Shown piece after piece: positions 485-57,438 of a DNA stretch of 64,000 nucleotides (positions within the stretch are counted from its first letter, which is position 1; each line of letters begins with the position of its first letter). The position numbers were made by a program, and so were the translations under genes. This DNA is from Desmodus rotundus (lineage: Eukaryota; Chordata; Mammalia; Chiroptera; Phyllostomidae). The notes beneath the pieces are model-generated. The model worked only from the letters and a program-made list of their open reading frames with translations. It ran no database searches and was not told the DNA's origin. The stretch spans positions 33,499 to 97,498 of the forward strand of contig NW_026527276.1 in assembly GCF_022682495.2 (NCBI RefSeq). Direction: 5' to 3'.

Positions 485-1510
485 TGAAGTTTTTAATATC
501 CATACTACCCAAAGCAATCTATAGATTCAACATAATCCTTTTTTTAAAAATATATTTATTGATTATGCTATTACAGTTGTCCCATACCCCCCCCACTCCA
601 CTCTATCCTGCCCACCCCCTCCCTCCCACATTCCCCCCCCCCTATAGTTCATGTCCATGGGTCATACTTATAAGTTCTTTGGCTTCTACATTTCCTACAC
701 TATTCTTACCCTCCCCCTGTCTATTTTCCACCTATACATCTATGCTACTTATTCTCTGTACCTTTTCCCCCCTCTCCCCCTCCCACTCCCCTATTGACAA
801 CCCTCCATGTGATCTCCATCTCTATGGTTCTGTTCCTGTTCTAGTTGTTTGCCTAGTTTACTCTTGTTTTTGTTTTAGGTGTGGTCGTTAATAACTGTGA
901 GTTTGCTGTCATTTTTACTGTTCATATTTTTGATCTTCTTTTTCTTAGGTAACTCCCTTTAACATTTCATATAATAAGGGCTTGGTGATGATGAACTCCT
1001 TTAACTTGACCTTATCTGAGAAGCACTTTATCTTCCCTTCCATTCTAAATGATAGCTTTGCTGGATACAGTAATCTTGGATGTAGGCCCTTGCGTTTAAT
1101 CTTGGGTAATGTAATTATGATGTGCCTTGGTGTGTTCCTCCTTGGGTCCAGCTTCTTTGGGACTCTCTGAGCTTCCTGGACTTCCTGGAAGTCTATTTCC
1201 TTTGCCAGATTAGGGAAGTTCTCCTTCATTATTTGTTCAAATAAGTTTTCAATTTTTTGTTCTTCCTCTTCTCCTTCTGGCACCCCTATAATTCGGATGT
1301 TGGATGATTTCAAGGTGTCCTGGAGGTTCCTAAACCTCTCCTCCTTTTTCCGAATTCTTGTTTCTTCATTCTTTTCTGGTTGGATGTTTCTTTCTTCCTT
1401 CTATTCCACACCGTTGATTTGAGTCCCAGTTTCCTTCGCATCACTATTGGTTCCCTGTACATTTTCCTTTGTTTCTCTTAGCATAGGCTTCATTTTTTCA
1501 TCTGGTTTTT

Positions 1511-3334
1511 TTTTTTTTTTTAAATATATTTATTGATTATGCTATTACAGTTGTCCCATTTCCCCCCCCCACTCCACTCCATCCTGCCCACCCCCCTCCC
1601 TCCCACATTCCCCCCCTATAGTTCATGTCCATAGGTCATACTTATAAGTTCTTTGGCTTCTACATTTCCTACACTATTTTTACCCTTCCCCTGTCTATTT
1701 TCCACCTATCATCTATGCTACTTATTCTCTGTACCTTTCCCCCCCTCTCCCCCTCCCACTCCCTTAATGACAACCCTCATGTTCTAGTTGTTTGCCTAGT
1801 TTGCTCTCGTTTTTGTTTTATGTGTGGCCGTTAATAACTGTGAGTTTGCTGTCATTTTTACTGTTCCTATTTTTGATCTTCTTTTTCTTAGGTAACTCCC
1901 TTTAACATTTCATATAATAAGGGCTTGGTGATGATGAACTTCTTTAACTTGACCTTATCTGAGAAGCACTTTATCTTCCCTTCCATTCTAAGTGATAGCT
2001 TTGCTGGATACAGTAATCTTGGATGTAGGTCCTTGCATTTAATCTTGGGTAATATAATTATGATGTGCCTTGGCGTGTTCCTCCTTGGGTCCAGCTTCTT
2101 TGGGACTCTCTGAGCTTCCTGGACTTCCCGGAAGTCTATTTCCTTTGCCAGATTAGGGAAGTTCTCCTTCATTATTTGTTCAAATAAGTTTTCAATTTTT
2201 TGTTCTTCCTCTTCTCCTTCTGGCACCCCTATAATTCGGATGTTTGAACGTTTCAAGGCGTCCGGGAGGTTCCTAAGCCTCTCCTCATTTTTCCAAGTTC
2301 TTGTTTCTTCATTCTTTTCTGGTTGGATGTTTGTTTCTTCCTTCTGGTCCACACCATTGATTTGAGTCCCAGTTTCCTTCTCATTACTATTGGTTCCCTG
2401 TACATTTTCCTTTGTTTCTCTTAGCATAGGCTTCATTTTTTCATCTGTTTTTCGAATAGATTCAACCAAGTCTGTGAGCATATTGATAACCAGTGCTTTG
2501 AACTGTGCATCCGATAGGTTGGCTATCTCTTCGTCGCTTAGTTGTATTTTTTCTGGAGCTTTGAAGTGTTCTGTCATTTGGGCCATTTTTTTTTGTCTTG
2601 GTGCGTCTGTTACTTTAAGGGGCGGAGCCTTAGGTGTTCACCAGGGCGGGGTAATGCTGGTCGCAGCGCTGTGATGCTGTACGTGGGGGAGGGGCCGAGC
2701 GGGAGCAATGGCACCGGCCTCACTGTCCTCCGGCTTTCAATCTTTCACTCCGCTACCCACAATCAAACTGGGCCACTCTGGTGCTGGTTCCCGAGTAAGT
2801 GGGCCTGTGCACACTCTAGGCCCCTGTGGGTCTCTCCAACCACCTCTCCTGTGAGGCTGGGAGTCTCTCCTGCTGCCGCCCCAACCCCCACGGGAGTTTT
2901 CAATCAGAGGTTTGAGGCTTTATTTCCCTGAGCTGGAGCCCTGGGTTACGCGGTCTGCTTCGCTCCCCGCCCTTCGTCCGGTTTATCTGTGGGCGAATGT
3001 GGTGCCGCGGGGTGCTACCTGCTGCTCTGCCTGCCCCGTTCTCTGCCACTCTGAGTCCGGCCCTCTCGGTTTATCTGTGCAAATGTGGGGCCGCAGGGTC
3101 TGCTAGTGCTTAGACTGCCTGTGCCATTTGTCCCACACTCCGCCAGTCTCAGTCCCGCCACAGCCACGCGAGTCCTCTCCACCCCAGTGCCTGTCTCCGC
3201 CCCTCCTACCAGTCTGGATGAATGTTTATTTTCTATTTCCTTGGTGTTGGTCCCCCTTGCTGTTCAATTCTCTGTCAGTTCTGGTTGTGCGAGGAGGCGC
3301 AGTGTGTCTACCTACGCCGCCATCTTGGTTCTCC
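1511..3334 (-). mobile_element. HAL1-like copy B, nested in copy A
   Basis: Complete ORF1-only element of about 1.82 kb on the minus strand. It has a 13-bp target duplication (tcatctggttttt, 1498-1510 and 3335-3347) lying inside ORF1 of copy A. Order on its strand: 5' UTR (about 3325-2587), ORF1 (2586-1888), 3' UTR and A-tail (1887-1511). There is no reverse transcriptase. Confidence 0.88.
1888..2586 (-). CDS. L1-type ORF1 protein of copy B, 232 codons, internally deleted
   Basis: Open frame beginning MAQMTEHFKAPEKIQLSDEE. It is an L1 ORF1-like RNA-binding protein: N-terminal coiled-coil region, RRM-like middle (FKRSNIRIIGVPEGEE-type block) and C-terminal domain. It is 46 codons shorter than the 278-codon ORF1 at 41406-42242 because of an in-frame gap after ILPKIK that removes the start of the C-terminal domain. 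A retroelement gene, not a host gene. Confidence 0.8.
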   Translation of the reverse strand: MAQMTEHFKAPEKIQLSDEEIANLSDAQFKALVINMLTDLVESIRKTDEKMKPMLRETKENVQGTNSNEKETGTQINGVDQKEETNIQPEKNEETRTWKNEERLRNLPDALKRSNIRIIGVPEGEEEEQKIENLFEQIMKENFPNLAKEIDFREVQEAQRVPKKLDPRRNTPRHIIIILPKIKCKDLHPRLLYPAKLSLRMEGKIKCFSDKVKLKKFIITKPLLYEMLKGVT

Positions 3335-5829
3335 TCATCTGGTTTTTGAACAGATGCAACCAATTCTGTGAGCATCTTGATAACCAGTGTTTTGAACTGT
3401 GCATCCAATAGGTTGGCTATCTCTTCCTCGCTTAGTTGTATTTTTTCTGGAGCTTTGAAGTGTTCTGTCATTTGGGCCATTTTTTTTTCTTTTTGTCTTG
3501 GCGTCTGTTACTTTAAGGGGCGGAGCCTTAGGTGTTCACCAGGGCGGGGTAACGCTGGTCACTGCTCTGTGATGCTGTCCATGGGGGAGGGGCCGAGAGG
3601 GAGTAATGGCGCCCGCTCCACTCTCCACCAGATTTCACTCACTTGCTGTGCTACCCACAATCAAACTGGGCCCCTTTGGTGCTGGTTTCCGAGTGGGTGG
3701 GCTTGTGCATGCTGTAGGCCCCTGTGGGTCTCTCCAACGACCTCTCCCGTGAGGCTGGGAGTCTCTCCTGCTGCCACCTCCAACCCCCACCGGCGTTTTC
3801 AATCAGAGGTTTGAGGCTTTATTTTCCCGAGCTGGAGCCCTGGGTTGCGAGGTCTGCTTCGCTCCCCGCCTTTTGTCCGGTTTATCTGTGCGTGAATATG
3901 GGGCCGCGGGGTGCTACCCACTGCTCTGCCTGCCCCGTTCTCTGCTACTCTGAGTCTGGCCCTCTTGGTTTATCTGTGTGCGAATGTGGGGCCGCAGGGT
4001 CTGCTAGTGGTCAGACTGCCTGCCCCGTTCGTCCCACACTCCGCCAGTCTCGGTCCCGCCACAGCCACACAAGTCCTCTCCGCCCCAGTGCCGTCTCTGC
4101 CCCTCCTACCGGTCTGGATGAATGTTTATTTTTTATTTCCTTGGTGTGGACTTCCTTGCTGTTCGATTTTCTGTCAGTTCTGGTTGTGCTAGGAGGCGCA
4201 GTGTGTCTACTTACGCCGCCATCTTAGTTCTCTCCTCAACATAATCCTTATTAAAATATCAATGTCATATTTCACTGGTCTAGAACAAATGCCCCTAAAA
4301 TTTATATGGAACCAAAGAAGACCCCAAGTAGCCTCAGCAATCTTGAGAAAGAAGAGCAAAGTTGAAGGGATCACAATACCTGATATTAAACTGTTATTAC
4401 AAGGCCACTGCAATCAACACAGTCTGGTACTGGCATAAGAACGACACATAGATCAGTGGAGCAAAATAGAGAGTCCAGAAATAAACCCATGTCTCTCTAG
4501 TCAATTAATATTTGACAAAGGGGGCATGAGCATACAGTGGAATAAAGATGGCCTCTTCAATAAATGGTGTTGGGGAACTGAACTGGTACATGGAAGAAAA
4601 TGAAACTAGACTACCAATGTACACCGTATACCAGGATAAAATCAAAATGGATAAAGGACTTAAGTATAAGTCGTGAGACCATAGAAGTCCTAGCAGAAAA
4701 CACAGGCAGTAAAATTTCAGATCTCCCAGGTAGCAATATTTTTGTTGATATATCTCCTACAGGAAGGGAAATAAAGGAAAAAACAAACAAATTGGACTAC
4801 ATCAAATTAAAAAGCTTCTGCACGGCTACTAAAGAAACCATCATCAAAAGGAAAAGGGAACCGACCGTATTTGCCAACAATACCTCACACAAGGGTTTAA
4901 TCTCCAAAATACAAGGTCTGGCACAAATAATGGCCCTGTTTATTACAAAATCTTTTATTACAAAATCATAAGCATGTAATCCTGCAACATAACTATTACA
5001 TGCAAGCATACCATATGACATTTTAGGTGAAATGTTCAAATTAAAACTAAAATCATTATACCCATATTCCTACCCTACCAACACATTCAAGCAGGCATTA
5101 CTTCTGCTGGACGCTATATATAAAAAACTCATATGATTCAATGCCAGGAAGACAAACAATCCAAATAAAAAAAGGGCAAGGACCTGAACAGATACTTCTC
5201 CAAGGAGGACATACAGAGGGCCCCTAGACACAAGAAAGGATGCTCAGCATCACTAGCCATCAGAGAGATGCAAATTAAAACCCCAATGAGATATCACCTC
5301 ACATTTGTCAGAATGGCTGTTATTAATAAATCAACAAACAACGAGTGCTGACGAGGATGTGAAGAAAAGGGAACCCTAGTGCACTGTCGGTGGGAATGCA
5401 GAGTGGTGCAGCCACTGTGGAAAACAGTACAGAATTTCCTCAAGAAACTAAAAATGGAACTGCCTTCTGTCCCAGCAATTCCACTGCTGGGAATATGACC
5501 TAAGGGTCCCAAAACACCAATTCAAAAGAACGTAGGCATCCCTATGTTTATAGCAGTGCTATATAGAATAGCCAAGTGCTGGAAACAGCCTAAGTGCCCA
5601 TCAGTAGATGAATGGATAAAAAAACTGTGGTACATTAACACAATGCAATACTACTATGAAGCAGAAAGAAAGAAGGAACTCCTACCTTTGCACCAGCATG
5701 GATGGAACTGGAGAGTATTATGCTAAGTGAAATAAACCAGTCAGTGAAAGACAAATACCATATGATCTCCCCTACAAGAGGAATCTAATGAACAAAATAA
5801 ACTGAGCAAAATAGAATGAGAGACATGGA

Positions 5830-7725
5830 GACTTCTGACCAAGATGGAGGTGTAGGTAGATATACTTTGCTTCCTTGTGCAACCGAAAGAAGGACAAAAA
5901 CAAATTTAAAAACAACCACCAGAACTGCCAGAAAATCTAACTGTATGGAAGTCCAACAACCAAGGAGTGAAAGAAGAAACATTCATCTAGACAGGTAGGA
6001 GGAGCGGAGAGGATGCCTGGCAAGGCTGCAGCTGGCAGACTGGGATGGGGTGAGGTGGCAGCTGGCAGATCAGGCAGTCCCACATTTGCAAGCAGATAAA
6101 CTGGGAGGAACAACTGGGGAGCAAGACAGACTGCGCAACCCAGGGTTCTAGCACAGGGAAAGAAAACCTCAAAAACTCTGGCTGTAAAAACCTATGGGGG
6201 TTGCGGTGGCGGGAGAAACTCCCAGTCTCACAGGAAAGTTCCCTGCAGAGACCCACAGATCCTAGAAGGTAAACACACCCATCCACCCGGGAAACAGCAC
6301 CAGAAGGGCCTAATTTGCTTGTGGGTAGTGGGGAGATGTGACTCAAAGCCAAACGAGAGGTGAGCAAGCCGTATTGTTCCCCCTCTGACCCCTCCCCTAC
6401 ACATAGAGCCACAATGCAGCCATGTGGGTTGCCCTGCCCTGGGGAATACCTAAGGCTCTGCCTCTTACAACATAACAGGCACAAGGAGACAAAAAAAAAA
6501 CATAGCCCAAATGAAAGAACAGATCAAAGCTTCAAAAACAGAACTAAGGGGTAAAGAGATAGCCAACCTATCAGATGCAGAGTTCAAAACACTGGTAATC
6601 AGGATGTTCACAGAAATGGTTGAGTATGATCGCAAAATAGAGGGAAAAGTGAAGGCTATGCAAAGTGAAATAAAGGAAAAGGTACAGGGAACCAACAGTG
6701 ACAGGAAGGAAGCCGGGACTCAAATCAACAATTTGGACCAGGAGGAAAAAATGCACATTCAACCAGAACAGAATGAAGAAACAAGAATTAAGAAAAATGA
6801 GGAGAGGCTTAGGAACCTCCGAGAAAACTTTAAACATTCCAACGTCCCAATCATAGGGGTGCCAGAAGAAGAAGAACAAGAAATTGAAAACCTATTTGAA
6901 AAAATAATGAAGGAGAACTTCTCCAATCTGGCAAAGGAAATAGACTTCCAGGAAGTCCAGGAAGCTCAGAGAATCCCAAAGAACTTAGACCCAAGGAAGC
7001 ACATGCCAAGGCACATCACAATCACATTTCCCAAGATTAAAAATAAAGAGAATCTGCAAGAGAAAAGGAGACAGTTACATCCAGGAGTTCCTATCAGACT
7101 GTCAGCTGATTTCTCAAAAGAAACCTTGCAGGCAAGAAGGGGCTGAAAAGAAGTATTCAATGTCATGAAAAGCAAGGACCTATATCCAAGGTTACTCTAT
7201 CTAGCAAAGCTTTTATTTAGAATGGAAGGGCAGATAAAGTGCTTCTCAGATAAGGTCAAGTTAAAGGAGTTCATCATCACCAAGCCCTTATTACATGAAA
7301 TGTTAAAGGGACTTATCTAAGAAAAAGAAGATGATCAAATATGCGAACAGTAAAATGACAACAAATTCATAGCTATCAACGACGGAACTTAAAAAACAAA
7401 AACAAAATTAAACTAAGCAAACAACTAGAACAGGAACAGAACCACAGAAATGGAGATCACATGGAGGGTTATCAACAGGGGAGGGGGAGAGAGGGGGGAA
7501 AGGTACAGAGAATCAGTAGCATAAATGGTAGGTAGAAAATAGACAGGGGGAGGGTAAGAATAGTATAGGAAATGTAGTAGCCAAAGAACTTATATGTATG
7601 ACCCATGGACATGAACTATAGGGGGGGAATGTGGGTGGGAGGGGGTGGGCAGGATGGAGTGGAGTGAAGGGGGGCAAATGGGACAAATGCAATAGCATAA
7701 TCAATAAATATATTTAAAAAAAAAA
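5830..7725 (+). mobile_element. HAL1-like copy C
   Basis: Plus-strand ORF1-only element of about 1.9 kb inside the 3' part of the older L1. The 5' end has the family start (acttctgaccaagatgg). ORF1 begins near 6511 and its frame breaks at about 7146. After ORF1 the sequence passes straight to the family 3' UTR (7370-7725), ending AATAAATATATTT plus A-tail. It is the most diverged copy here. I could not find a clear target duplication. Confidence 0.8.
6511..7146 (+). pseudogene. Degenerate L1-type ORF1 of copy C
   Basis: 211-codon open segment starting MKEQIKASKTELRGKEIANL. It keeps the ORF1 RRM block and the start of the C-terminal domain (GVPIRLSADFSKETLQARRG), then meets a stop where intact copies continue. 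A few codons are lost before that block. Non-functional retroelement remnant. Confidence 0.75.
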
Positions 7726-11394: not shown

Positions 11395-12077
11395 GTCAAA
11401 TGGTAGAAAATATTTGTAACATGTATATCTCAGAAAGGACTTGTATTAAACAGAATTAAAAAAATAAACAAAAAACTCTAACAACTCAATAACATATTCT
11501 AACTTCTAAAAACATACACAAAAGATCTCAAAACTTTTCACAAAAGAAGACAGCTGAAGAGCCAGTCAATAAACGTGAACTAACATCTTTAGTTCTTAGG
11601 GAAAAGCAAATCAAGAGCAGGGGTGACAAAACCACAGGGTCAGAAAAGAGATGAGTGACTGTGGGGGTGAAGTAGGGGGGGGATAACCACGCAGGGGCAG
11701 GAAGGGCTGATGGAGATATTCTGCATCTTCACTGTGCTGCTGGTGGTTATGAGACCTTGAATTCATGGTCAAACCTTGTAACATTGTTTGCTACTGATCT
11801 CCATAGTTCACCTTCATTTTTATCATGAAACTACCTTATTGGTCACAGTGGTTTTACAATCAATCATGTGATATAGAATAATTAATACATAATTAAAAAA
11901 CCTGATCTATAAGCCATATAACTAAAAAGAAACAAATTGTGATGTTGAATCATACATTTTGATAGTGGAATTAATTTGTCAATATTTTCTGTGACTGATC
12001 GAGGATTAACACTTCGGTTATCTAGTTCACTTTCTGATGATTAAAAATGTCACCGCTTAAAAACTAAGCTAAATTTA

Positions 12078-14015
12078 GGACTTCCAGCCCAGATGGAGGC
12101 GTAGGTAGACACACTGCACCTCCTTGCACAATCAAAAGAAGGACAACAATTTAAAAACAAAAAACGAGAACTGACAGAAAATCGAACTGTATGGAAGTCC
12201 AACAACCAAGGAGATAAAGAAGAAACATTCATCCAGACCGGTAGGAAGGGTGGAGATGGGCAGGCAGGGCAGAGAGGACTAACAGCAAGGAGGCGGCTGG
12301 CAGACCCAGTGAGGTGGTGGATTGTGGAGCAGGGTGGGCAAAGCTGCAGCTGGCGGGAGAGGCAGCAGCTGGTGGACCCTGCAACAGACCTCACAACCCA
12401 GGGCTCCAGCTTGGGGAAATAAAGCCTCAAAGCTCTGATTGAAAACACCTGTGGGGGTTGAGGAGCCAGTGGGAGAAACTCCCAGCCTCATAGGAGAGTT
12501 TGTTGGAAAGACCCACAGGGTCCTAGAATGTACACAAACCCACCCACTCGGGAAGCAGCACTAGAGGGGCCAATTTGATTGTGGGTAGTGGAGGGAGTGC
12601 CTGAAAACGGACAGAGTGGAGCAAGCGCCATTGCTCCCTATCGGCCCCTCCCGCATATACAGCATCACAGTGCAAGGACATGGGTTGCCCCTCCCTGGTG
12701 AACATCTAAGGCTCCGCCCCTTTACGTAACAGGCATGCCAAGACAAAAAAAAAAAAAAGGCCCAAATGAAAGAACAGATCAAAGCTCCAGAAAAAACACA
12801 ACTAAGCAACGAAGAGATAGCCAGCCTATCAGATGCACAGTTCAAAACACTGGTAATCAGGAAGCTCACAGAATTGGTTGAATTTGGTCACAAATTAGAT
12901 GAAAAAACGAAGGCTATGCTAAGAGAAAAAAGGAAAATGTACAGGGAACCAATAGTGATGGAAAGGAAAATGGAATTTAAATCAACGGTGTGGACCAGAA
13001 GGAAAAAAGAAACATCCAACCAGAAGAGAATGAAGAAACAAGTATTCAAAAAATGAAGAGAGGCTTAGGAACCTCCAAGACATCTTTAAATGTTCCAACA
13101 TCTGAATTATAGAGGTACCAGAAGGAGAAGAGGAACGGCAAAAAGTTGTAAACTTATTTGGTTAACAAATGCTTATTTGTAAACAAATAATGAAGGAGAA
13201 CTTCCCCAGTCTGGCAAAGGAAACAGACTTCCAGGAAGTCCAGGAAGCTCAGAGAGTCCCAAAGAAGCTGGACCCAAGGAGGAACACACCAAGGCACATC
13301 ATAATTACATTACCCAAGATTAAAAATAAGGAGAGAATCTTACAAGCAGCAAGATAAAAGGACACAGTTACCTACAAAGGAGTTCCCATAAGACTGTCAG
13401 CTGATTTCTCCAAAGAGACCTTACAGGCAAGAAGGGGCTGGCAAGAAGTATTCCAAGTCATGAAAGGCAAGGACCTACATACAAGATTACTGTATCCAGC
13501 AAAGCTATCATTTAGAATGGAAGGGCAGATAAAGTGCTTCTCAGATAAGGTCAAGTTAAAGGAGTTCATCATCACCAAGCCCTTACTATATGAAATGTTA
13601 AAGGGATTTATCTACGAAAAGGAAGATAAAAAATGTGAACAGTAAAAATGACAGCAAACTCATAGTTATTAACAACCACACCTAAAACAAAAACAAAAGC
13701 AAACTAAGCAAACCACCAGAACAGGAACAGAACCACAGAAATGGAGATCACATGGAGGGTTATCAATAGGGGATTAGGAGGGGGAGAGAGAGGGGAAAGG
13801 TACAGAGAATAAGTAGCATAAATGGTAGGAAGAAAATAGACAGGAGGAGGGTAAGAATAGTATAGGAAATGTAGAAGCCAAAGAACTTATATGTATGACC
13901 CATGGACATGAACTATTGGGGGGGAATGTGAATGGAGGCGGGTGAGCAGGATGGAGTGGCGTGAAGGGGGGGAAATGGGACAACTGTAATAGCATAATCA
14001 ATAAAATATATTAAA
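12078..14015 (+). mobile_element. HAL1-like copy D
   Basis: Plus-strand ORF1-only element of about 1.94 kb including tail, with a 19-bp target duplication (aaaaactaagctaaattta, 12059-12077 and 14016-14034). 5' UTR 12078-12765, ORF1 from 12766, 3' UTR from about 13650. ORF1 has a frameshift about 55 codons in, shared with copy F, and a small local duplication near 13150-13190. There is no ORF2. Confidence 0.88.
12766..13645 (+). pseudogene. Broken L1-type ORF1 of copy D
   Basis: Starts MKEQIKAPEKTQLSNEEIAS. It is in frame to about residue 54, then a one-base loss in an A-rich run shifts the frame. The C-terminal ORF1 sequence is recognisable again in other frames (for example KLSFRMEGQIKCFSDKVKL at about 13498-13560). 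Non-coding in its present state. Confidence 0.8.
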
Positions 14016-14234
14016 AAAAACTAAGCTAAATTTAAAGGGTGAATTTTTACTGCATGCGAATTATATCTCAAAGTCAAAAACAAGTAAGTCAGTGGGGCGA
14101 AACACAACACAGTACCACGGCACACTTACCAGGATGACGGCTGAAGGTAAAAAGTCAGAACACCGAGAGCTAACAGGGTGTCGGGCAACCAGAACTCTCA
14201 CAGGCTGCTGGGATGCAGAAACACTATAATCACT

Positions 14235-19898: not shown

Positions 19899-19943
19899 CA
19901 TTTCTAGATCTCCATCAGCAACTGCTCTTAAAAGTTTTTCTAC
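19899..19943 (-). CDS. ANKRD27: ANKRD27 exon 21 (residues 670-684)
   Basis: 45 nt microexon, phase 0/0. It encodes VEKLLRAVADGDLEM, the first helix of an ankyrin-type repeat continued in exon 22. Acceptor TTTATTAAG, donor GTGAGTT. A Ves SINE begins only about 65 bp upstream of its acceptor. Confidence 0.97.
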
Positions 19944-20226: not shown

Positions 20227-20419
20227 AAGATTTTATTTATTTTTAGAGAGAGGAAAAGGGAGGGAGAAAGAGGGAGAGAAATATTGAATGGTTGCCTCTC
20301 ACATGCCCCCAGCTGAGGATATGGCCTACAATCCAGGCATGTGCCCTGAATGGGAATCGAACCGGCAACCTTCTGGTTCACCAGCCGGCACTCAATCCAC
20401 TGAGCCACACCAGCCAGGG
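20227..20419 (-). mobile_element. Ves SINE
   Basis: Minus orientation: T-rich tail at left, then cttctggttcaccagccgg and gccacaccagccagggt, the reverse complement of the tRNA-like head. The flanks carry 'tcatttgt' on both sides. Confidence 0.9.
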
Positions 20420-20432
20420 TTCATTTGTCTTT

Positions 20433-20653
20433 TTAAAAACGATTGTATTTATTTATTTTTAGAGGGGAAGGGAGAAAGAAAAAGAGGGAGAGAAACATTA
20501 ATATGAAAGAGAAACATTGATTGGTTGCCTCTTGTACACCCCCAACCAGGGACCTGGCCTGCAACCCAGGCATGTGCCCTGACTGGGAATCAAACCAGCA
20601 ACCTTTCAGTTTGTGGGACGATGACCAACCCACTGAGCCACACCAGTCAGGGC
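20433..20653 (-). mobile_element. Ves SINE
   Basis: Minus orientation, immediately beside the previous copy and sharing the 'tcatttgtct' flank, so two Ves copies entered the same target. Ends gagccacaccagtcagggct. Confidence 0.9.
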
Positions 20654-21871: not shown

Positions 21872-21991
21872 CTCTCGGTAGTCCTTCTTGGGCTCCTCTT
21901 GTCTGGAGGTGGTGGACACAGAGGAGAAGCTGGAGGTGGAGGACCCCTGGCTGATGGAGTCCATGGAATGCTGAGGGGGTGGCACAGGGAC
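21872..21991 (-). CDS. ANKRD27: ANKRD27 exon 20 (Ser-rich linker; residues 630-669)
   Basis: 120 nt, phase 0/0. It encodes MDSISQGSSTSSFSSVSTTS and ends QEEPKKDYRE. It is a Ser/Thr-rich unstructured linker between the two ankyrin blocks; in the human protein the region around residues 658-707 contacts VAMP7. Acceptor TTTGCTGCAG, donor GTGAGG. Overlapping long open frames on the other strand here are chance. Confidence 0.96.
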
Positions 21992-22084
21992 CTGCAGCAA
22001 AGCAGCCCAACAAGAGAAGAGACAGGTGAGGGCCAGTGAGGATGCCCTGGTCATGAATAGAGCCAAGGAGGACAGCCCTATCCA

Positions 22085-22090
22085 CTTACC
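22085..22090. repeat. Provirus target-site duplication, 5' copy
   Basis: cttacc. On the minus strand it reads GGTAAG. Together with the antisense LTR end it forms CAG|GTAAGT, a consensus donor (exon side 22092-22090, intron side from 22089). Confidence 0.93.
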
Positions 22091-22648
22091 TGTGGGGAAC
22101 CGTTCCAAGCGTGGGAAATGTGGCTCAGCCCCCACTTGGAAAACCAGTGGGGAGCGAAGTTGGCGGGCAGGACCCACGTCCATGGATAAGTTCTCCAGTG
22201 GGAAATCAGGCCTGCATTGTACTTAGACTGCTATGAGACTTGCTCTTGCTAACTCCCTCACCCTGAATTGAGGAAGCAAATGTTTACTGAGTATCCTTAT
22301 CTTCCCAGAATCTGGGCAAACCCCCCAGGTATGGGACAAAGTCTTTTCGACCATTTCTCCTTTTACATTGCAAATATCCCCCTTTGATGTACTCAGCGAC
22401 ATCCTCTCCTGTGTCTGCAAAGATAACCACCCCAAAGAAACCTATGAATAATAAATGAGGACCATGTTTGATGTAGGAGGCCTAGAAAAACAATAAAGCC
22501 TGTCCAGTCGGGGGTGAAGGGGTCTCTCTCTAACTTGGAGAGTGGCCACGTAGCCCCTTTTCCCCCACCGGATTTCTATAGTCCGTGTGTATGTGTGTTT
22601 GAATACTGAAACCTCAACAGCAGATCTTGCGGGACGAGATCTGCATCA
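22091..22648 (+). repeat. 5' LTR
   Basis: 558 bp, TGTGGGGAACC...TCA. Polyadenylation signal AATAAA at 22492-22497. It differs from the 3' LTR at seven bases, four of them in the last 20 bases, and lacks a 4-base A insertion near 22250. Confidence 0.95.
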
Positions 22649-22650
22649 AC

Positions 22651-22670
22651 TGGAGCCCAGGAACAGGGAC
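22651..22670 (+). promoter_or_regulatory. Primer-binding site, tRNA-Lys type, imperfect
   Basis: Two bases after the 5' LTR: tggagcccaggaacagggac. It resembles the tRNA-Lys3 site with one substitution and a two-base insertion. Assignment is by resemblance. Confidence 0.65.
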
Positions 22671-23528
22671 CCAGGGCTCCGAGCCGCAGTTGTGGTCAAT
22701 ACACCAACTTCGTGGGATTTGCGCGCAATAGCCCAGGTAAGGGCAGACGGCACCGAGCGCTTTTCGGTTATGCCGTAGGGTGTATTGGATTCAGGGGAAA
22801 AGGGGTTTCTTTCCAAGGTCGCGCTCTCTTGCCACCGCTTTACAACTGCACTTTCTTCAGTAAGCAGTAGCCTTGCTCTTTCTCCCAACTAGGTCTAGGC
22901 TTGGGAGAAAGAGCAAAGACTTTTTCTTTAATCAGCTTTAAAAACAGCAACTAGTTACAGGGATATTTTAAACAAGCTGCTTCTTGCGGTCCTTTCGATT
23001 CTTGCCTTTTCGATCCGTCTGCCTGCATAGGGAAAAGTGGATAGGAAATGAGGGTTTCGGTTTCGGCCGGACTCCGAAGATCGCTTTCCAGAAGAATTTA
23101 ACGTTAGTCACAGGTTTTGTATGAGAGCCTTTGGCATTCGCCAAGCTCCGAAGACAAAAGGCACTTCCTCCCCTCGGCCTGAGAAATCAGGTGTTCCCAC
23201 GTGAGTCGGGACCTTGCGAGGGTGTCTGGGATCAATTCCCGAGACGTGCAGGGGCCTTACAGGGACCTCCAACATCACCTAATCTAACTTCTGATTCATC
23301 TAGGGAAGCCCCTTCCTCGCGGTTCTAAACGCTTGGGGAGTACCCGAGACCCATAAGCAGGGTTAGGGCACTCGGAAAGTCCGGTGCTCCTCTCCCTGAC
23401 GGTCTTTCACCAACAGCACATTTCGACCCACACTCTATCCCTTAACAGTTAACTAGTTAGGGTTCAGCATAAGTGACGTGATCTGAGGGGACAAGAATCG
23501 AAAGTTAAAAGCCTTTTTACTAGCAAGA
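22671..23528 (+). other. Proviral leader
   Basis: About 860 bp between the primer-binding site and the gag start, non-coding, moderately GC-rich. A packaging signal would be expected here but I cannot point to one. Confidence 0.5.
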
Positions 23529-23928
23529 ATGGGCTCTGGTTTATCTAGAGCAGGAGGTATACCTGCGAGTGTTACAGCAGCTTCTCCAGGGAGCGGGTTG
23601 TAAGGTAAAGGAGCAGCATCTCATTCAGCTTTTACGAACTATAAAGGAATATTACCCTGCTTTTCCTGACAAAGGAAACTTAGATATCGAGGTTTGGGAA
23701 GAAGCAGGCGATAAGTTAAAATCTTTACAGGACAATGGTGTTTCTATCGGATCCCAAGACCTAATAACTTGGGGCCTAGTCAAGACTGCCCTCATGCCCA
23801 TGTGGGCTAAGAAACAGGAGCTAGTTACAGAGGAGGACAAGGAGTCTAGCTCAGAGGAGGAAGTTACGTATAATGTAGTAGAAGAATCAGCTATGAAAGT
23901 TCTGCCTACAGCCCCACCGGCGGAGTAA
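23529..23928 (+). pseudogene. gag matrix remnant, frameshifted
   Basis: An ATG at 23529 opens a short frame with a myristoylation-type N-terminus (MGSGLS) that stops after about 24 codons. The downstream frame (about 23569-23928) has betaretroviral matrix features: the KVKEQHLIQLLRTIKEYYP helix, a PAFPDKGNLD turn and a WGLVKTALMP block. The two frames are out of register, so the start is broken from the matrix. It then ends in a stop after an acidic Ser/Glu-rich tail. No capsid or nucleocapsid follows. Confidence 0.8.
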
Positions 23929-24758
23929 AAAGCAAGACTGACACTGGTTTTATAAACACCGCGTTTGCGGCGGGAGGAATTTCAGAAAAGATTTTTTTAA
24001 TTGTTAAGGAATTTCTTTAAAAGTGGGAACAGGCTCTCTAAGGAACAAGAGCAATGTTTTAAGCTAATTCAGCAGCTATTTAAGGCTGCTGAATGTCTCC
24101 CTAATAAGGGATCTTTAAACTTACTTAGGAACAAGTTGGGCAGGAGTGGAAATAACAGGTGGTGTGAGGTAAGATTCTAAGGCTAGTGTCTCCCTCCCTC
24201 CCTTAGAGGATTTAATTTGAAAATACTGGTTTGCTTGAATTTTATTTTTGTTCTTGAATAGCTCAATCTCAAAATATTTTCCTAAACCTCTGGTAAACAG
24301 AATGAGATCTCTAATGTTGTTACATCATAAAGATTCTACTCAGAAAGAATTTAGATTGTTTAAAATAAATAAATAAATGTATTTGCCAGTGGAGAAAAGA
24401 CTGGCTCTGAAGGTTAGGAATGTGTTCAGCAATTTGTCAATCTAAAGCATGTTACAAGTGGAATGGGGGTGTGTGTGACGTATTAAAGAAATATTAAGAA
24501 TCCTCCTTGTTTAGGCCGGAGCCGTGACCTTTTATTGTAAAAATGAAATATAGGTGTGCTGCCTCCCGGGGAGAACTAGCCCTTCTCCACGGAAGAATAC
24601 ACACCAATTTTTAACTCAGTACCTGTAAACACTGATCATTTCCTTGGGGAAGAACTGGCTATTCTCCCGGAAGGAACGATTAGTTAATTAAGTCACAAAA
24701 GGCTCCTGGCGCTCTTTTCTAAAACGTATTTTAAGCAAAGCACCTCCACCCCTGTCTT

Positions 24759-24803
24759 TCCCACATGGTCCAGTGGTTAGGATTTCTGGCCTTCACCCAG
24801 GCG
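24759..24803 (+). pseudogene. tRNA-Glu (UUC) 5' two-thirds, fused to a tRNA-Lys
   Basis: tcccacatggtccagtggtt... matches tRNA-Glu from base 1 through the anticodon stem-loop. The loop CCTTCAC carries anticodon TTC and the stem is CTGG/CCAG. The match ends at GGCG, where a tRNA-Lys begins. The T arm and acceptor 3' strand of Glu are missing. Confidence 0.8.
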
Positions 24804-24872
24804 CCCGGCTAGCTTGGTCGGTACAGCATGGGACTCTTAATCCCAGAGTTGTGGGTTTGAGCCCCACGTTTT
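24803..24872 (+). pseudogene. tRNA-Lys (CUU) pseudogene
   Basis: GCCCGGCTAGCTTGGTCGGT starts a near-complete tRNA-Lys with anticodon CTT in the loop between GGGA and TCCC stem halves, and a T arm of GTGGG/CCCAC type. The last acceptor bases are replaced, so the acceptor stem cannot close. It is embedded in the provirus. Confidence 0.82.
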
Positions 24873-25059
24873 ACTGTTTCAAAATAAAAATGAAAAAGGG
24901 GCACTTTTAAAACAGGCTATTTTTCTGTCACCACTTGGAGTCCTCCAAGGAGGGTGAGAATCAGAGAATCAGACCTCTGGGATTAAACAGGAAAAGTAAT
25001 AGGAAAAAGTTAAGGGACTGTTTATCATTCCCCTAGCAGAAAGGAACTGCAAGAGATTT

Positions 25060-25295
25060 GCCTTCTCAGTCCCAGTACTTAACAATTGTCAACCATTAGA
25101 GAGGTTTCAGTGGAAAGCCCTACCATCCGCTAACATTTTGTTCTTCAGCCTGTTTAGCCAGTACGGACTCAGTTTCCTCAAAGTGTAATTTATCATTGCA
25201 TGGATGACACCGTAATTGCTACAGCCTCTCAAGAAGAGCTAAAGCAAGTTTACCTCTATGTCACCTCAGCGGAACTAGTCGTAGCCCGGGAAAAG
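25060..25295 (+). pseudogene. pol reverse-transcriptase remnant
   Basis: A 'FQWKALP' block (about 25108-25128) and a CMDDTVIA active-site-like block (about 25197-25220; Cys in place of the usual Tyr/Phe before MDD) with a following ELKQVYLYV helix are recognisable. Most of the intervening palm is missing and frames change. Dead. Confidence 0.75.
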
Positions 25296-25299
25296 CATT

Positions 25300-25530
25300 A
25301 TAGGCCTTGGCGTCAGCGCGCGCATGCTCCCAGAGCTTCGCGGCCAGGTTTTTTCTGCCAAGGACGGGCGGGGATGGAGGAGACATTGGTCCCCATTAGC
25401 CTCCGTTTCCCCGCACCCAGCGCTGTTGTGATCAGGACCTGCTGGGGCGCCCGGGGCTGCGGTTCCCCGCAGCACCCAGCCTCCTTGGGCGCCTAGCAGC
25501 TGAGGCACAGTTTGCGCCTCTCCAAGGGGA
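25300..25530 (+). other. GC-rich insert of unknown origin inside the provirus
   Basis: About 230 bp with dense CpG (gcgcgcgcatgc, gggcgcccgggg) and no retroviral similarity, directly after the RT remnant. The base composition is unlike the AT-leaning proviral flanks. Confidence 0.5.
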
Positions 25531-25929
25531 GGCCCCAGCGTGTTTAGTTTTGAAAAAGGGATTTCTATAACGTTTACATTTCTATAACTGGAATGGGGAC
25601 ATTTCTCAACCCTGGAAAGGTGTGTAGTCTCTTAAATGTTTTGGTCCAAAGGGCAAGTTGGATGAATTTAGCCTTACTTCCTCCCTGCCCCACTTAATTC
25701 CTGGGGCAGGGACCTCCTCACTCTGGGGAATACACATCACTCTGTTCTCTGTGCTAACCCCAGAGGTTTGCGACCTCAAATAATTTGGCAAACAGAAGTT
25801 ACTCACTACCCCTCAGATTTTTAACCGTGCTGGCAATATATACCTACAATTTTTTAAGTTGTGATGATAATTTAAAGTTACCCATAGACAAATGCCTTGG
25901 GCAAAACAGGCCTGCAGTCCCACACCCCT

Positions 25930-26060
25930 TGGTCTCATACAAAGACCCATTAGGGGAGGAAAATGGGAAGGCCCAGTTGCTCTATTAACTTGGGGAAGAG
26001 GGTATGCTTGTTTTTTCTCTCCAGAAGGACCTTTGGAGCTGCATTGAAGAGGGTGAAGCT
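25930..26060 (+). pseudogene. pol integrase C-terminal remnant
   Basis: One frame reads a WEGPVALLTWGRGYA-like block, the conserved C-terminal DNA-binding domain of betaretroviral integrases, with a frameshift just before it. Only this end of integrase survives. Confidence 0.75.
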
Positions 26061-26223
26061 ATATCAGAAAAGGCTTCCCTGGCAGAGACCCACTTCCACC
26101 CCATTGGACTCTTCCGATCCAGGATTCTCCAAGCTGCGCATCACCCACCCTAAAGTGCAATTCCATCCAGTACTCCTGGAGTGATATTCAGCATCACCTA
26201 GAGGGACTTTTTCTACCAATTTA

Positions 26224-26526
26224 AAAGGACAAATTGATAAATTACAACTAGAACTACATCAGCAGCTACAGGACATTCAACACCTAACTAAGCAAGAGGT
26301 TTTCCAAACCCTCCGTGACAATCTCTACTGGCTAAACCCAAAAAATTGGTTTGATGGACTTAATCTGAGAAGGTGGGTCTTTGGAGCCACTGGTTGCTTA
26401 CTGATTATAATAATGCTCTGTGTACTGCGCGGCATTTACAAGCTATTTTCCCAGGGTCGTGTGAGAGACCAGCAAGTAGCAAGCTTTGTGGAACCTATAG
26501 CAGTCCTAAATAAAAACAAGGGGGGA
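26224..26526 (+). pseudogene. env transmembrane-subunit C-terminal remnant
   Basis: An open frame carries a heptad-like LQLELHQQLQDIQHLTKQ helix, an NWFDGLNLRRW pre-membrane segment, a hydrophobic span (ATGCLLIIIMLCVL) and a short cytoplasmic tail running to the polypurine tract. The surface subunit and the fusion region are absent. Confidence 0.8.
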
Positions 26527-26528
26527 GA
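26512..26528 (+). promoter_or_regulatory. Polypurine tract
   Basis: aaaacaaggggggaga directly before the 3' LTR, as expected for plus-strand priming. Confidence 0.85.
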
Positions 26529-27090
26529 TGTGGGGAACCGTTCCAAGCGTGGGAAATGTGGCTCAGCCCCCACTTGGAAAACCAGTGGGGAGCGAAGTTG
26601 GCGGGCAGGACCCACGTTCATGGATAAGTTCTCCAGTGGGAAATCAGGCCTGCATTGTACTTAGACTGCTATGAGACTTGCTCTTGCTAAAAAACTCCCT
26701 CACCCTGAATTGAGGAAGCAAATGTTTACTGAGTATCCTTATCTTCCCAGAATCTGGGCAAACCCCCCAGGTATGGGACAAAGTCTTTTCGACCATTTCT
26801 CCTTTTACATTGCAAATATCCCCCTTTGATGTACTCAGCGACATCCTCTCCTGTGTCTGCAAAGATAACCACCCCAAAGAAACCTATGAATAATAAATGA
26901 GGACCATGTTTGATGTAGGAGGCCTAGAAAAACAATAAAGCCTGTCCAGTCGGGGGTGAAGGGGTCTCTCTCTAACTTGGAGAGTGGCCACATAGCCCCT
27001 TTTCCCCCACCGGATTTCTATAGTCCGTGTGTATGTGTGCTTGAATACTGAAACCTCAACAGCAGATCTTGCGGGCCGCGATCCGCGTCA
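26529..27090 (+). repeat. 3' LTR
   Basis: 562 bp, TG...CA, with AATAAA at 26934-26939. Its outer end abuts the target duplication that is also the exon 19 donor. Confidence 0.95.
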
Positions 27091-27096
27091 CTTACC
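27091..27096. repeat. Provirus target-site duplication, 3' copy, overlapping the exon 19 donor
   Basis: cttacc. 27096 is the last base of exon 19, and 27091-27095 are the first five bases of its intron. Confidence 0.93.
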
Positions 27097-27155
27097 TCCG
27101 AAGATTGTTGCCTCCTTTCAAAGGATAGATGGTGGGCTTCCATTATAGACAGAAT
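27096..27155 (-). CDS. ANKRD27: ANKRD27 exon 19 (residues 610-629), donor rebuilt by a provirus target duplication
   Basis: 60 nt, phase 0/0. It encodes ILSIMEAHHLSFERRQQSSE. Acceptor CCCCCTAG; donor GAG|GTAAGT at 27095-27090. The last exon base plus the first five intron bases (27091-27096) are the target-site duplication of the provirus whose 3' LTR ends at 27090. The +6 T of the donor is therefore supplied by the LTR end. The exon remains in frame with exons 18 and 20. Confidence 0.96.
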
Positions 27156-27857: not shown

Positions 27858-28076
27858 TAAAATATTTTATTTTATTTATTTAAATATTTTATTTATTTAT
27901 TTTTAGAGAAGGGAAGGGAGGGAGAAAGAGAAATATCAATGTGTGGTTGCCTCTCAGGCGCCCCCTACTGGGGACCTGGCCCACAACCCAGGCATGTGCC
28001 CTGACTGGGAATCAAACTGTCGATCTTTCGCCTTGCAGGACAATGACCAACACACTGAGCCACACCTGTCAGGGCA
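27858..28076 (-). mobile_element. Ves SINE
   Basis: Minus-strand copy with a long T/A-rich tail at left and gagccacacctgtcagggca at right. Confidence 0.9.
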
Positions 28077-40990: not shown

Positions 40991-42997
40991 TTTTTTTTTC
41001 ATTTTTTTTGATATATTTATTGATTATGCTATTACAGTTGTCCCATTTCCACCCCTTCACTCCACTCCATCCTGCCTACCCCCTCCCTCCCACATTCCCC
41101 CTCTATAGTTCATGTCCATGGGTCATACATATAAGTTCTTTGGCTTCTACATTTCCTGCACTATTCTTACCCTCCCCCTGTCTATTTTCCTCCTATCATT
41201 TATGCTATTTATTCTCTGTACCTTTCCCCCCTCTCTCCCCCTCCCAATCCCCTATTGATAACCCTCCATGTGATCTCCATTTCTGTGGTTCTGTTTCTGT
41301 TCTAGTTGTTGGCTTAGTTTTCTTTTGTTTTGGTTTTAGGTGTGGTTGTTAATAACTGTGAGTTTGCTGTCATTTTTACTTTTCATATTTTTTATCTTCT
41401 TTTTCTTAGATAAATCCCGTTAATATTTCATAGAATAAGGGCTTGGTGATAATGAACTCCTTTAACTTGACCTTATCTGAGAAGCACTTTATCTGCCCTT
41501 CCATTCTAAATGATAGCTTTGCTGGATAGAGTAATCTTGGATGTAGGCCCTTGCCTTTCATGACTTGGAATACTTCTTGCCAGCCCCTTCTTGCCTGTAA
41601 GGTCTCTTTTGAGAAATCAGCTGACAGTCTTATGGGAACTCCTTTGTAGGTAACTGTGTCCTTTTCTCTTGCTGCTTCTAAGATTCTCTCCTGTTTAATC
41701 TTGGGTAATGTAATTATGATATGCTTTGGCGTGTCCCTCCTTGGGTCCAGCTTCTTTGGGACTCTCTGAGCTTCCTGGACTTCCTGGAAGTCTATTTCCT
41801 TTGCCAGACTGGGGAAGTTCTCCTTCATTATTTGTTCAAATAAGTTTTCAATTTGTTGTTCTTTCTCTTCTCCTTCTGGCACCCCTATAATTCGGATGTT
41901 AGAACGTTTCAAGATGTCTTGGAGGTTCCTAAGCCTCTCCTCATTTTTCCCAATTCTTGTTTCTTCATTCTTTTCTGGTTGGATGTTTCTTTCTTCCTTC
42001 TGGTCCACCTCATTGATTTGAGTCCCAGTTTCCTTCGCATCACTATTGGTTCCCTGTACATTTTCCTTTGTTTCTCTTAGCATAGCCTTCATTTTTTCAT
42101 CTAGCTTTTGAACAAATTCAACCAATTCTGTGAGCGTCTTAATAACCAGTGTTTTGAACTGTGCATCCAATAGGTTGGCTATCTCTTCCTCGCTTAGTTG
42201 TATTTTTTCTGGAGCTTTGAAGTGTTCTGTCATTTGGGCCATTTTTTTTTTTGGTCTTGGCGCATCTGTTACCTAAAGGGGCGGAGCCTTAGGTGTTCAC
42301 CAGGGCAGGGTAACGCTGGTTGCTACACTGTGACACTGTACGTGGGGGAGGGGCCGAGAGGGAGCAATGGCGCCCGCTCCACTCTCTGCTGGATTTCGTC
42401 ACTCCCTCCACTACCCACAATCAAACTGGGCCCCTCTGGTGCTGATTCCCGAGTGGGTGGGCTTGTGCACACTCTAGGCCCCTGTGGGTCTCTCCAATGA
42501 CCTCTCCTGTGAGGCTGGGGGTTTCTCCTACTGCTGCCTCAACCCCCATGGGCGTTTTCAATCAGAGGTTTGAGGCTTTATTTTCCCGCTCTGGAGCCCT
42601 GGGTTACGTGGTCTGCTTCGCTCCCTGCCGTTCATCCCGGCTTATCTGTGCGCAAGTGGGGGCCACGGGGTACTATCTGCTGCTCTGTCTGCCCCATTCT
42701 CCGCCACTCTGAGTCCGGCCCTCTCGGTTTCTCTGTGCGCGAATGTGGGGCCGCAGGGTCTGCTAGTGGTCAGACTGCCTGCCCCTTTCGTCCCACACTC
42801 CGCCAGTCTCAGTTCCGCCACGGCAACTCGAGTCCTCTCTGCCCCGGCTGGCTGTCTCCGCCCCTCCTACTGGTCTGGATGAATGTTTATTTTTTATTTC
42901 CTTGGTGTCGGACGTCCTCGCCGTTCGATTTTCCGTCAGTTCTGGTTGTGCGAGGAGGCGCAGTGTGTCTACCTACGCCGCCATCTTGGTTCTCTCC
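40991..42997 (-). mobile_element. HAL1-like copy E, with intact ORF1
   Basis: Minus-strand ORF1-only element of about 2.0 kb inserted in a Ves SINE, with an 11-bp duplication (cagttgcctct, 40980-40990 and 42998-43008). 5' UTR about 42990-42243, ORF1 42242-41406, 3' UTR and tail 41405-40991. No ORF2 is present between ORF1 and the 3' end. Confidence 0.9.
41406..42242 (-). CDS. Intact L1-type ORF1 protein, 278 codons (copy E)
   Basis: Begins MAQMTEHFKAPEKIQLSEEE and ends LFYEILTGFI. Domains: N-terminal coiled-coil region (about 1-105, heptad-rich EERLRNLQDILKRS at its end), RRM-like domain (about 110-190, containing NIRIIGVPEGEE and the LPKIK strand) and C-terminal domain (about 200-278, containing GVPIRLSADFSKETLQARRG and RLLYPAKLSFRME). 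L1 ORF1p is a trimeric RNA chaperone of the retrotransposition particle. It is the only fully open full-length ORF1 in the window. Retroelement gene, same strand as ANKRD27, in intron 5. Confidence 0.85.
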   Translation of the reverse strand: MAQMTEHFKAPEKIQLSEEEIANLLDAQFKTLVIKTLTELVEFVQKLDEKMKAMLRETKENVQGTNSDAKETGTQINEVDQKEERNIQPEKNEETRIGKNEERLRNLQDILKRSNIRIIGVPEGEEKEQQIENLFEQIMKENFPSLAKEIDFQEVQEAQRVPKKLDPRRDTPKHIIITLPKIKQERILEAAREKDTVTYKGVPIRLSADFSKETLQARRGWQEVFQVMKGKGLHPRLLYPAKLSFRMEGQIKCFSDKVKLKEFIITKPLFYEILTGFI

Positions 42998-43192
42998 CAG
43001 TTGCCTCTCTTATGTGCCCTGACAGGGGACTTGAACCCACCACCCAGGCACGTGCGCTGACTAGGAATTCACTGGCAGCCTTTTGCTTTGTGGGATGATG
43101 ACCAATGGAGCCATACCAGACAGGGCCATAATGGTCATTTTTACATTTTCCTGTGATTTTCAAGTTTTCTACAGTGGCTGTGCTACTATCTT

Positions 43193-43418
43193 TTTTTTAA
43201 AAGATTTTATTTATTTTTTTTTTAGAGAGAGGGGAAGGGAAGGAGAAAGATAGGGAGAGAGACATCTATGTGCAAGATAAACATTGATTGGCTGCCTCTT
43301 GCACGCTCTCAAGCGGGGACCCGGCCTGCAACCCAGGCATGTGCCCTGACCAGGAATCAAACTGTGACCCTTCATTTTGCAGGATGCACTCATCCCGCTG
43401 AGCCACACCAGCCAGGAT
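43193..43418 (-). mobile_element. Ves SINE
   Basis: Minus-strand copy with a T-rich tail at left and gagccacaccagccagga at right. It lies 155 bp below exon 5. Confidence 0.9.
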
Positions 43419-45373: not shown

Positions 45374-47266
45374 GACTTCTGGCCAAGATGGAGGCATAGG
45401 TAGACACACTGTGCCTCTTCGCACAACCAAAAGGACAACAACAATTTAAAAACAATAAACAACGAGAACTGACAGAAAATCTAACTGTATGGAAGTCCAA
45501 CAACCAAGGAGATAAAGAAGAAACATTTATCCAGACCGGTAGGAGGGGTGGAGATGGGCAGGCAGGGCAGAGAGGACTAACAGCAAGGAGGCGGCTGGCA
45601 GACCCAGTGAGGTGGTGGATTGTGGAGCAGGGCAGGCAAAGCTGCAGCTGGCGGGAGAGGCAGCAGCTGGTGGACCCTGCAACAGACCTCACAACCCAGG
45701 GCTCCAGCTTGGGGAAATAAAGCCTCAAAGCTCTGACTGAAAACACCTGTGGGGGTTGAGGTGCCAGTGGGAAAAACACCCAGCCTCATAGGAGAGCTCG
45801 TTGGAGAGACCCACAGGAGCCTAGAAACCCACCCACATGGGAAGCAGCACCAGAAGGGCCCAATTTGATTGTGGGTAGTGGAGGGAGTGACTGAAAACCA
45901 GCAGAGAGTGGGAGCAAGCACCATTGCTCCTATTGGGCCCCTTCCCCACATACAACGTCACAGTGCAGGGACATGGTGAACACCTAAGGCTCTGCCCCTT
46001 TATGTAACAGGCATGCCAAGACACACACAAAAAAGGCCCAAATGAAAGAACAGATCAAAGCTCCAGAAAAAATACAACTAAGCAACGAAGATATAGCCAA
46101 CCTATCAGATGCACGGTTCAAAACACTGGTACTCAGGAAGATCATAGAATTGGTTGAATTTGGTCACAAATTAGATGAAAACATGAAGGCTATGCTAAGA
46201 GAAAAAAGGAAAATGTACAGGGAACCAATAGTAATGGGAAGGAAAATAGAACTCAAATCAACGGTGTGGACCAGAAGGGAAAAAGAAACATCCAACCAGA
46301 AGAGAATGAACAAGAATTCAAAAAAACGAGGAGAGGCTTAGGAACCTCCAGGACATCTTTAAATGTTCCAACGTCCAAATTATAGGGGTGCCAGAAGGAG
46401 AAGAGGAAGAACAACAAATTGAAAACTTATTTGAACAAATAATGAAGGAGAACTTCCCCAGTCTGGCAAAGGAAATAGACTTCCAGGAAGTCCAGGAAGC
46501 TCAGAGAGTCCCAAAGAAGCTGGACCCAAGGAGGGACACACCAAGGCACATCATAATTACATTCCCCAAGATTACACGGAAGGAGAGAATCTTAGAAGCA
46601 GCAAGAGAAAAGGACACAGTTACCTACAAAGGAGTTCCCATAAGACTGTCAGCTGATTTCTCAAAAGAGACCTTACAGGCAAGAAGGGGCTGGCAAGAAG
46701 TATTCCAAGTCATGAAAGGCAAGGGCCTACATCCAAGATTACTCTATCCAGCAAAGCTATCATTTAGAATGGAAGGGCAGATAAAGTGCTTCTCAGATAA
46801 GGTCAAGTTAAAGGAGTTCATCATCACCAAGCCCTTACTATATGAAATGTTAAAGGGATTTATCTACGAAAAGGAAGATAAAAAATGTGAACAGTAAAAA
46901 TGACAGCAAACTCAGTTATTAACAACCACACCTAAAACAAAAACAAAAGCAAACTAAGCAAACCACCAGAACAGGAACAGAACCACAGAAATGGAGATCA
47001 CATGGAGGGTTATCAATAGGGGATTAGGAGGGGGAGAGAGAGGGGAAAGGTACAGAGAATAAGTAGCATAAATGGTAGGTAGAAAATAGGCAGGGGAAGG
47101 GTAAAATAGTATAGGAAATGTAGGAGCCAAAGAAATTATATGTATGACCCATGGACATGAACTATAGAGGGGGAATGTGGGAGGGAGGGGGTGGGCAGGA
47201 TGTTGTGGAGTGAAGAGGGGGAAATGGGACAAATGTAATAGCATAATCAATACAATATATTAAAAT
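45374..47266 (+). mobile_element. HAL1-like copy F
   Basis: Plus-strand ORF1-only element, 1.89 kb, with a 15-bp duplication (aaaatgcatatcctg, 45359-45373 and 47267-47281). 5' UTR 45374-46041, ORF1 from 46042 with the same early frameshift as copy D, intact C-terminal ORF1 frame 46388-46897, then the 3' UTR. Inserted in intron 3. Confidence 0.92.
46042..46897 (+). pseudogene. Frameshifted L1-type ORF1 of copy F
   Basis: Frame 1 (46042-46341) starts MKEQIKAPEKIQLSNEDIAN and shifts after AMLREKRKMYREP. The RRM and C-terminal domains are open in another frame from 46388 (VPEGEEEEQQIENLFEQIM) to 46897. The lesion matches copy D. Confidence 0.82.
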
Positions 47267-47689
47267 AAAATGCATATCCTGAAGTTAACATTGACAACCA
47301 GATAGACTGACATCACGTGCCTCCTGACAGGAAACTCTGGGAAAGATAACACACCCTTCAGAGACATTCCTCCCGAACTGTGTAACTGCCCATTTAATCA
47401 CCAGGGAGCATCTGAGAACCTGCACTGAGGGACAGTTCACAAGGCAAACCAAACACGTCAATGTCATTAGAGACAGGGACAGACTGAGGGACTCTCCCAA
47501 ATGGAAGAGAACTAAAAAGGTGTTCTGCGACCCTGCACCTGTAAGGACAGTGTCGGTGCAGTGAGCACACGCTGGGCAGGAACAGTGTATCAGAGGGCAG
47601 CACTCCGTCAATGTTAAACTTCCTGAGTGTATGCTCTGCACTGCGGCGGTGCAGGGAACACAGACTGAATTGTTTTGGAGGAAGGAACA

Positions 47690-53076: not shown

Positions 53077-53276
53077 TATTGTAAAGATTTTATTTATTTA
53101 TTTTTAGAGAGGGGAAGGGAAGGAGAAAGAGAGGGAGAGAAACATCAATGTGTAGTTGCCTCTTCCATGTCCCCTACTGGGAACCTGGCCCGGAACCCAT
53201 GCATGTACCCTGACTGGGAATTGAACCTTTGGTTCGCTGGCTGGCGCTCAATCCACTGAGCCACACCAGCCAAGGC
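53077..53276 (-). mobile_element. Ves SINE
   Basis: Minus-strand copy, ends gagccacaccagccaaggct. 'agtagcattt' and 'agtagcattc' flank it as a probable target duplication. Confidence 0.92.
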
Positions 53277-57228: not shown

Positions 57229-57232
57229 TTTT

Positions 57233-57438
57233 TAAAAAGATTTTATTTATTTATTTTTAGACAAAGGGGAAGGGAGAAAAAGAGGGAGAGAAACATCAGT
57301 GTGTGGTTGCCTCTTGCACACCCCCTACTTAGGGACCTGGCCCCACAACCCAGGCATGTGCCTTGACTGGGAATAGAACCAGCGACCCTTTGGTTCACAG
57401 GCTGGCACTCAATCCACTGAGCCACAGCAGCCAGGGCA
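57233..57438 (-). mobile_element. Ves SINE, minus orientation
   Basis: Tail-to-tail with the previous copy; ends gagccacagcagccagggc. Confidence 0.9.

Follow-up and report, generated by a model that had tools for sequence, protein, structure and literature searches.

The window analyzed here is a stretch of 64,000 nucleotides (nt) from the genome of the bat Desmodus rotundus (assembly GCF_022682495.2, contig NW_026527276.1), the minus strand of which carries several exons of the gene ANKRD27. Between two of these, numbered 19 and 20 in an earlier sequence-only reading, lies a 5,000-bp provirus with long terminal repeats (LTRs), which spans positions 22091-27090 and is oriented antisense to the gene (Table 1). 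Its two near-identical TG...CA LTRs are enclosed by a 6-bp target duplication, CTTACC, present at 22085-22090 and again at 27091-27096. The exon-side copy of the duplication overlaps the donor of exon 19 exactly, with 27096 being the last base of the exon and 27095-27091 the intron bases +1 to +5, i.e. G/GTAAG on the gene strand (a slash marks splice boundaries throughout). Both the provirus with its flanking duplication and this overlap had been proposed in the sequence-only reading, and its coordinates prove correct to the single nucleotide. Taken literally, the direct repeat measures 8 bp, as a CA just outside the duplication is common to the host flank and the LTR end; the duplication is set at 6 bp because the LTR end is placed at the point where homology to the 5' LTR stops.

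Read on the minus strand, the copy next to exon 19 is CTTCGGAG/GTAAG followed by TGACGCGG, and joining the two flanks in silico gives CTTCGGAG/GTAAGTGGATAGG for the empty allele. The filled donor, GGAG/GTAAGTGACGC, and the empty one, GGAG/GTAAGTGGATA, are identical through +7. The T at +6 had previously been attributed to the LTR. This is so, and extends to the G at +7, because LTR elements begin with TG on either strand; but it involves no rebuilding by repair, since the native intron also has TG at these positions. The same reading held that integration here would normally destroy splicing and that repair of the staggered cut had regenerated the donor. Neither statement withstands closer inspection: where a duplication spans the donor, the bases next to the exon are retained, which makes an intact exon-side copy the geometric default; nothing had to be rebuilt. 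As the provirus begins after +5, the insertion is intronic, and it lengthens the intron from 98 nt in the empty allele to 5,104 nt in the filled one. The less ordinary part of the locus had gone unmentioned: the far copy of the duplication places a second donor, at 22089, directly behind an acceptor-like LTR end.

Exons 19, 20 and 21 join in frame without a stop and exon 22 continues the frame. The earlier claim that all downstream exons stay in frame thus holds for exons 19 to 22, whose joins were examined. The intact frame had also been taken as a sign that the allele is tolerated, a suggestion that we reject, as an intronic insertion causes no shift downstream. With respect to the identity of the gene, the peptide of exon 23 matches the PDB entry 4b93_B (ankyrin repeat domain-containing protein 27) at 67 of 67 residues. 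Other ankyrin proteins rank above this entry when the repeats are summed, and the assignment therefore leans in part on the match of the exon peptides to human ANKRD27. The open reading frame of exon 20 recovered no match in PDB or Pfam.

The two LTRs differ by seven substitutions and one 4-bp indel, a divergence of 7/558 aligned bases (1.25%). Four of the seven differences are packed into 12 bp at the U5 end (22634-22645 and 27076-27087), a clustering matched in a fraction of 0.0008 of 200,000 random placements by a test that was framed after the cluster had been noticed. The cluster could stem from conversion or from CpG change; leaving these four differences out lowers the divergence to 0.54%. 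At mammalian rates, the provirus would be about one to three million years old. Given the low divergence, the element is young and could be polymorphic, which lends something to the view that the join arose in the assembly or represents a rare allele private to the individual that was sequenced. We nevertheless hold this to be very improbable: misassembly would hardly yield a clean matching duplication and LTR termini with the host gene in frame to either side, and even a private allele would be genuine.

From the sequence, the duplication, the identity of the donor and the frame, all of which are observed, we infer every RNA outcome discussed here. The most likely of these, and one that we consider probable, is a normal exon 19-20 mRNA, with 27095 spliced directly to 21992. 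Under this reading, a defective, probably nonautonomous betaretrovirus-like provirus integrated antisense into ANKRD27 such that the 6-bp duplication fell on the exon donor, and the filled allele is in effect a 98-nt intron enlarged to 5,104 nt. The donor, GAGGTAAGT, falls at the 99.95th percentile of the 3,726 minus-strand GT sites by matrices that, like all splice-scoring matrices used here, are approximations; this supports direct splicing. The acceptor of exon 20 scores 9.32 log-odds, against 7.25 for the acceptor at the far junction. Introns of 5 kb are ordinarily spliced directly in mammals. Several observations weigh on the other side. A short intron that relied on intron definition may splice poorly once it reaches 5.1 kb. 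Four acceptors of the antisense LTR, at 22263, 22415, 22442 and 22482 (scores of 8.5-9.4), lie upstream of the perfect-consensus donor at 22089 and might draw splicing away, and stronger antisense acceptors occur deeper in the provirus, at 23023 (11.70) and 23483 (10.62). The provirus also contains five poly(A)-signal hexamers on the gene strand (two AATAAA and three ATTAAA), and an assembly error is a possible source of the join. The second donor copy and the CA of the LTR make up an acceptor-donor pair, and a minority of molecules may use it. Recursive use would again yield the normal mRNA; alternatively, the copy may serve as donor for a pseudo-exon that contains stops. Recursive use and loss through pseudo-exons are compatible with each other and with direct splicing.

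The juxtaposed pair, CCCCACAG/GTAAGT, is built like a recursive splice site, and like one intron nested at another's edge. By summed log-odds it ranks first among the 529 AG/GT sites on both strands of the window. Its donor half scores 100 on an approximate Shapiro-Senapathy matrix, tied for the top of the minus-strand GT sites, and the donor of exon 25 has the same nine bases. Among the 4,599 minus-strand AG sites, the acceptor half falls at the 95.6th percentile; it exceeds the acceptors of exons 19, 21, 23, 24 and 25, that is five of the six native acceptors of one scoring, as well as that of exon 22 (4.56), and is below that of exon 20. Splicing from 27095 to 22090 would join exon 19 to GTAAGTGG, which is exactly the native junction. 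These features raise the prospect that a functional recursive splice site arose through the insertion, with a first step that would remove 5,006 nt and a second that would remove the 98-nt intron in the normal way; the provirus would then be one intron nested where another begins. A candidate recursive exon of 218 nt (22089-21872) would share its donor with exon 20. We regard such a site as unlikely, on several grounds. The donor duplicates one that presumably works, and its strength is therefore inherited and to be expected; the acceptor half alone is new. The yUnAy branch-point motif, present at 7/7 native acceptors and at 2,041 of the 4,599 minus-strand AGs, is absent from the 12-50 nt upstream of this acceptor, and the pyrimidine fraction, at 0.62, is the joint lowest, equal to that of the native acceptor of exon 20. 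Among the other listed antisense AG sites of the provirus that score at least 6.5, 20 of 28 surpass the junction acceptor, and outside the provirus 94 of 842 CAGG sites score as high. Efficient use of the junction acceptor is consequently doubtful.

The same donor could have a less benign role. It is conceivable that it mainly ends pseudo-exons derived from the LTR, the allele then being partly loss-of-function via nonsense-mediated decay. Paired with the acceptors at 22482, 22442, 22415 and 22263, it would define exons of 392, 352, 325 and 173 nt, all four of which contain in-frame stops, and its perfect consensus would favor such use. Seven further antisense donors in the provirus reach a score of 6.5. 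On the other hand, the case for pseudo-exons is built from sequence scores, and antisense LTRs are common in introns; we judge it unlikely that this outcome predominates. Pseudo-exons and poly(A) signals are nevertheless routes by which the allele could be harmful, and direct splicing across the whole provirus is still the reading that we favor.

As for the element itself, 67 interior open reading frames of at least 36 amino acids were listed on both strands, and 20 of them (18 sense and two antisense) were searched for domains. Seventeen of the 20 gave no domain match, and no dUTPase domain was found among the 20. The matrix fragment carries the Gag_p10 domain, a betaretrovirus-like feature, and recovered 10 PDB matches to Gag, core or matrix proteins, with M-PMV named among them. 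A search of the protein collection with it found 76 relatives. When 26 of these, for the most part the highest-ranking ones, were aligned, gag ended at the same column in 16 (P0001-P0015 and P0022) and not in the other 10. These shared protein ends suggest that full-length gag was already missing when the family spread, and that its mobility depended on proteins provided in trans. By its coding remnants, the element is a defective betaretrovirus-like endogenous retrovirus (ERV), and probably a nonautonomous one. In the viral contig collection, the gag fragment gave six pattern matches and no relatives, and the start of the LTR gave no matches. The candidate primer-binding site is taken by eye to resemble the tRNA-Lys3 type.

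A tRNA-like stretch at 24810-24867 lies inside the provirus (Rfam RF00005, E 0.00074) and is followed by an A-rich stretch. By eye we take it to be like tRNA-Lys with a CTT anticodon. It was the only match in the window at the Rfam gathering score, ARAGORN reported none, and blastn against the window found no second copy, the matches being just 12-18 bases long. A tRNA retropseudogene, a short interspersed element (SINE) and a captured primer tRNA are all candidates for its origin. Elsewhere in the window, L1-like repeats occur in both orientations (834-4227, 5830-7723, 12076-14020, 41002-43022 and 45374-47269), with Pfam L1 ORF1 domains in four of 10 open stretches tested. Short interspersed repeats at 20267-20653, 27870-28075, 43199-43362, 53079-53284 and 57230-57773 resemble the VES-type SINEs of bats.

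Table 1. Features of the ANKRD27 exons and of the provirus, in window coordinates. Exon numbers follow the sequence-only reading.
Feature	Position	Strand	Remarks
ANKRD27 exon 19	27096-27155	-	60 nt
ANKRD27 exon 20	21872-21991	-	120 nt; donor at 21871
ANKRD27 exon 21	19899-19943	-	
Further ANKRD27 exons	about 17835-17713, 9877-9680, 8585-8466, 203-42	-	
Native intron as in empty allele	21992-22089	-	98 nt; ends TGCAG
Exon-side duplication copy	27091-27096	-	exon 19 last base (27096) and intron +1 to +5
Far duplication copy	22085-22090	-	G/GTAAG on gene strand; duplicated donor right behind LTR CA
Juxtaposed acceptor/donor CCCCACAG/GTAAGT	22089-22090	-	22090 is the acceptor G and 22089 the donor G; resembles a recursive splice site
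5' LTR	22091-22648	+	558 bp; TG...CA
Probable primer-binding site	22651-22670	+	by eye; degenerate
Truncated gag matrix fragment	23524-23925	+	Gag_p10, Pfam 6.7e-16
Integrase C-terminal domain remnant, open reading frame	25871-26044	+	IN_DBD_C, 7.7e-07
Open stretch, weak envelope GP41 match	26185-26661	+	0.00096; 19.6 bits, below curated cut-off of 29.6
Probable polypurine tract before 3' LTR	26515-26528	+	by eye
3' LTR	26529-27090	+	562 bp; TG...CA; end provides intron +6 and +7 in filled allele

The geometry of this insertion invites a more general formulation, namely that LTR elements carry a rule for becoming introns whenever the duplication is G/GTAAG; the present provirus would be a case in which a single integration made a recursive splice site that restores the native pre-mRNA exactly. 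On the exon side, the terminal TG would give GTAAG+TG, and on the far side the terminal CA would give CA+G/GTAAG, in either orientation of the element; an antisense LTR with a G-rich start of U3 would add a pyrimidine-rich end. We offer this rule tentatively and think it unlikely to hold as stated. If the junction at 22090 is used, a single retroviral integration would suffice for a recursive splice site, and ERV insertion, intron gain and recursive splicing would be linked; if it is unused, the locus is an intronic ERV of the ordinary sort, unusual in its position. What deserves testing is the possible recursive site.

Among known systems, the provirus can be placed beside the class II betaretrovirus-like ERVs found antisense in introns, with which it shares TG...CA LTRs, a short duplication, Gag_p10 and the orientation relative to the gene, whereas here the duplication overlaps an exon donor exactly. 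A further parallel is the 412 retrotransposon in the Drosophila vermilion gene, which is reported to be spliced from the precursor RNA. In both cases an LTR element would be removable from a transcript by splicing, potentially so in the present one, but 412 is inserted within an exon. An LTR provirus at this exact donor offset was not found in the literature searched, in what was a partial check, and ANKRD27 did not appear among the literature matches listed.

Bat betaretroviral ERVs are described as having four-nucleotide duplications and, for the most part, LTRs of 300-500 nt (PMC3621094), as against the 6-bp duplication and the LTRs of 558 and 562 bp seen here. Introners co-opt splice sites from target duplications; they form repeated families, most of which have been attributed to DNA transposition (PMC9860276). 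The present case is like them in that the splice sites are taken from the target duplication and the end of the element, and differs in being a single LTR provirus in a pre-existing intron. Stwintrons likewise have a nested intron that interrupts or abuts an outer donor. In their common [D1,2] type, that donor is split between bases 1 and 2 (PMC12403724), whereas here the break would precede base 1. Recursive splice sites or ratchet points (PMC8605326) share with the junction a juxtaposed acceptor and strong donor, use of which would recreate a donor at the upstream exon. The site described here differs in that it would derive from one integration in a former 98-nt intron and lacks a consensus branch point. 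In Drosophila, a cryptic exon at the ratchet point is required for recursive splicing (PMC8605326); its counterpart here would be the 218-nt exon that the donor of exon 20 could define.

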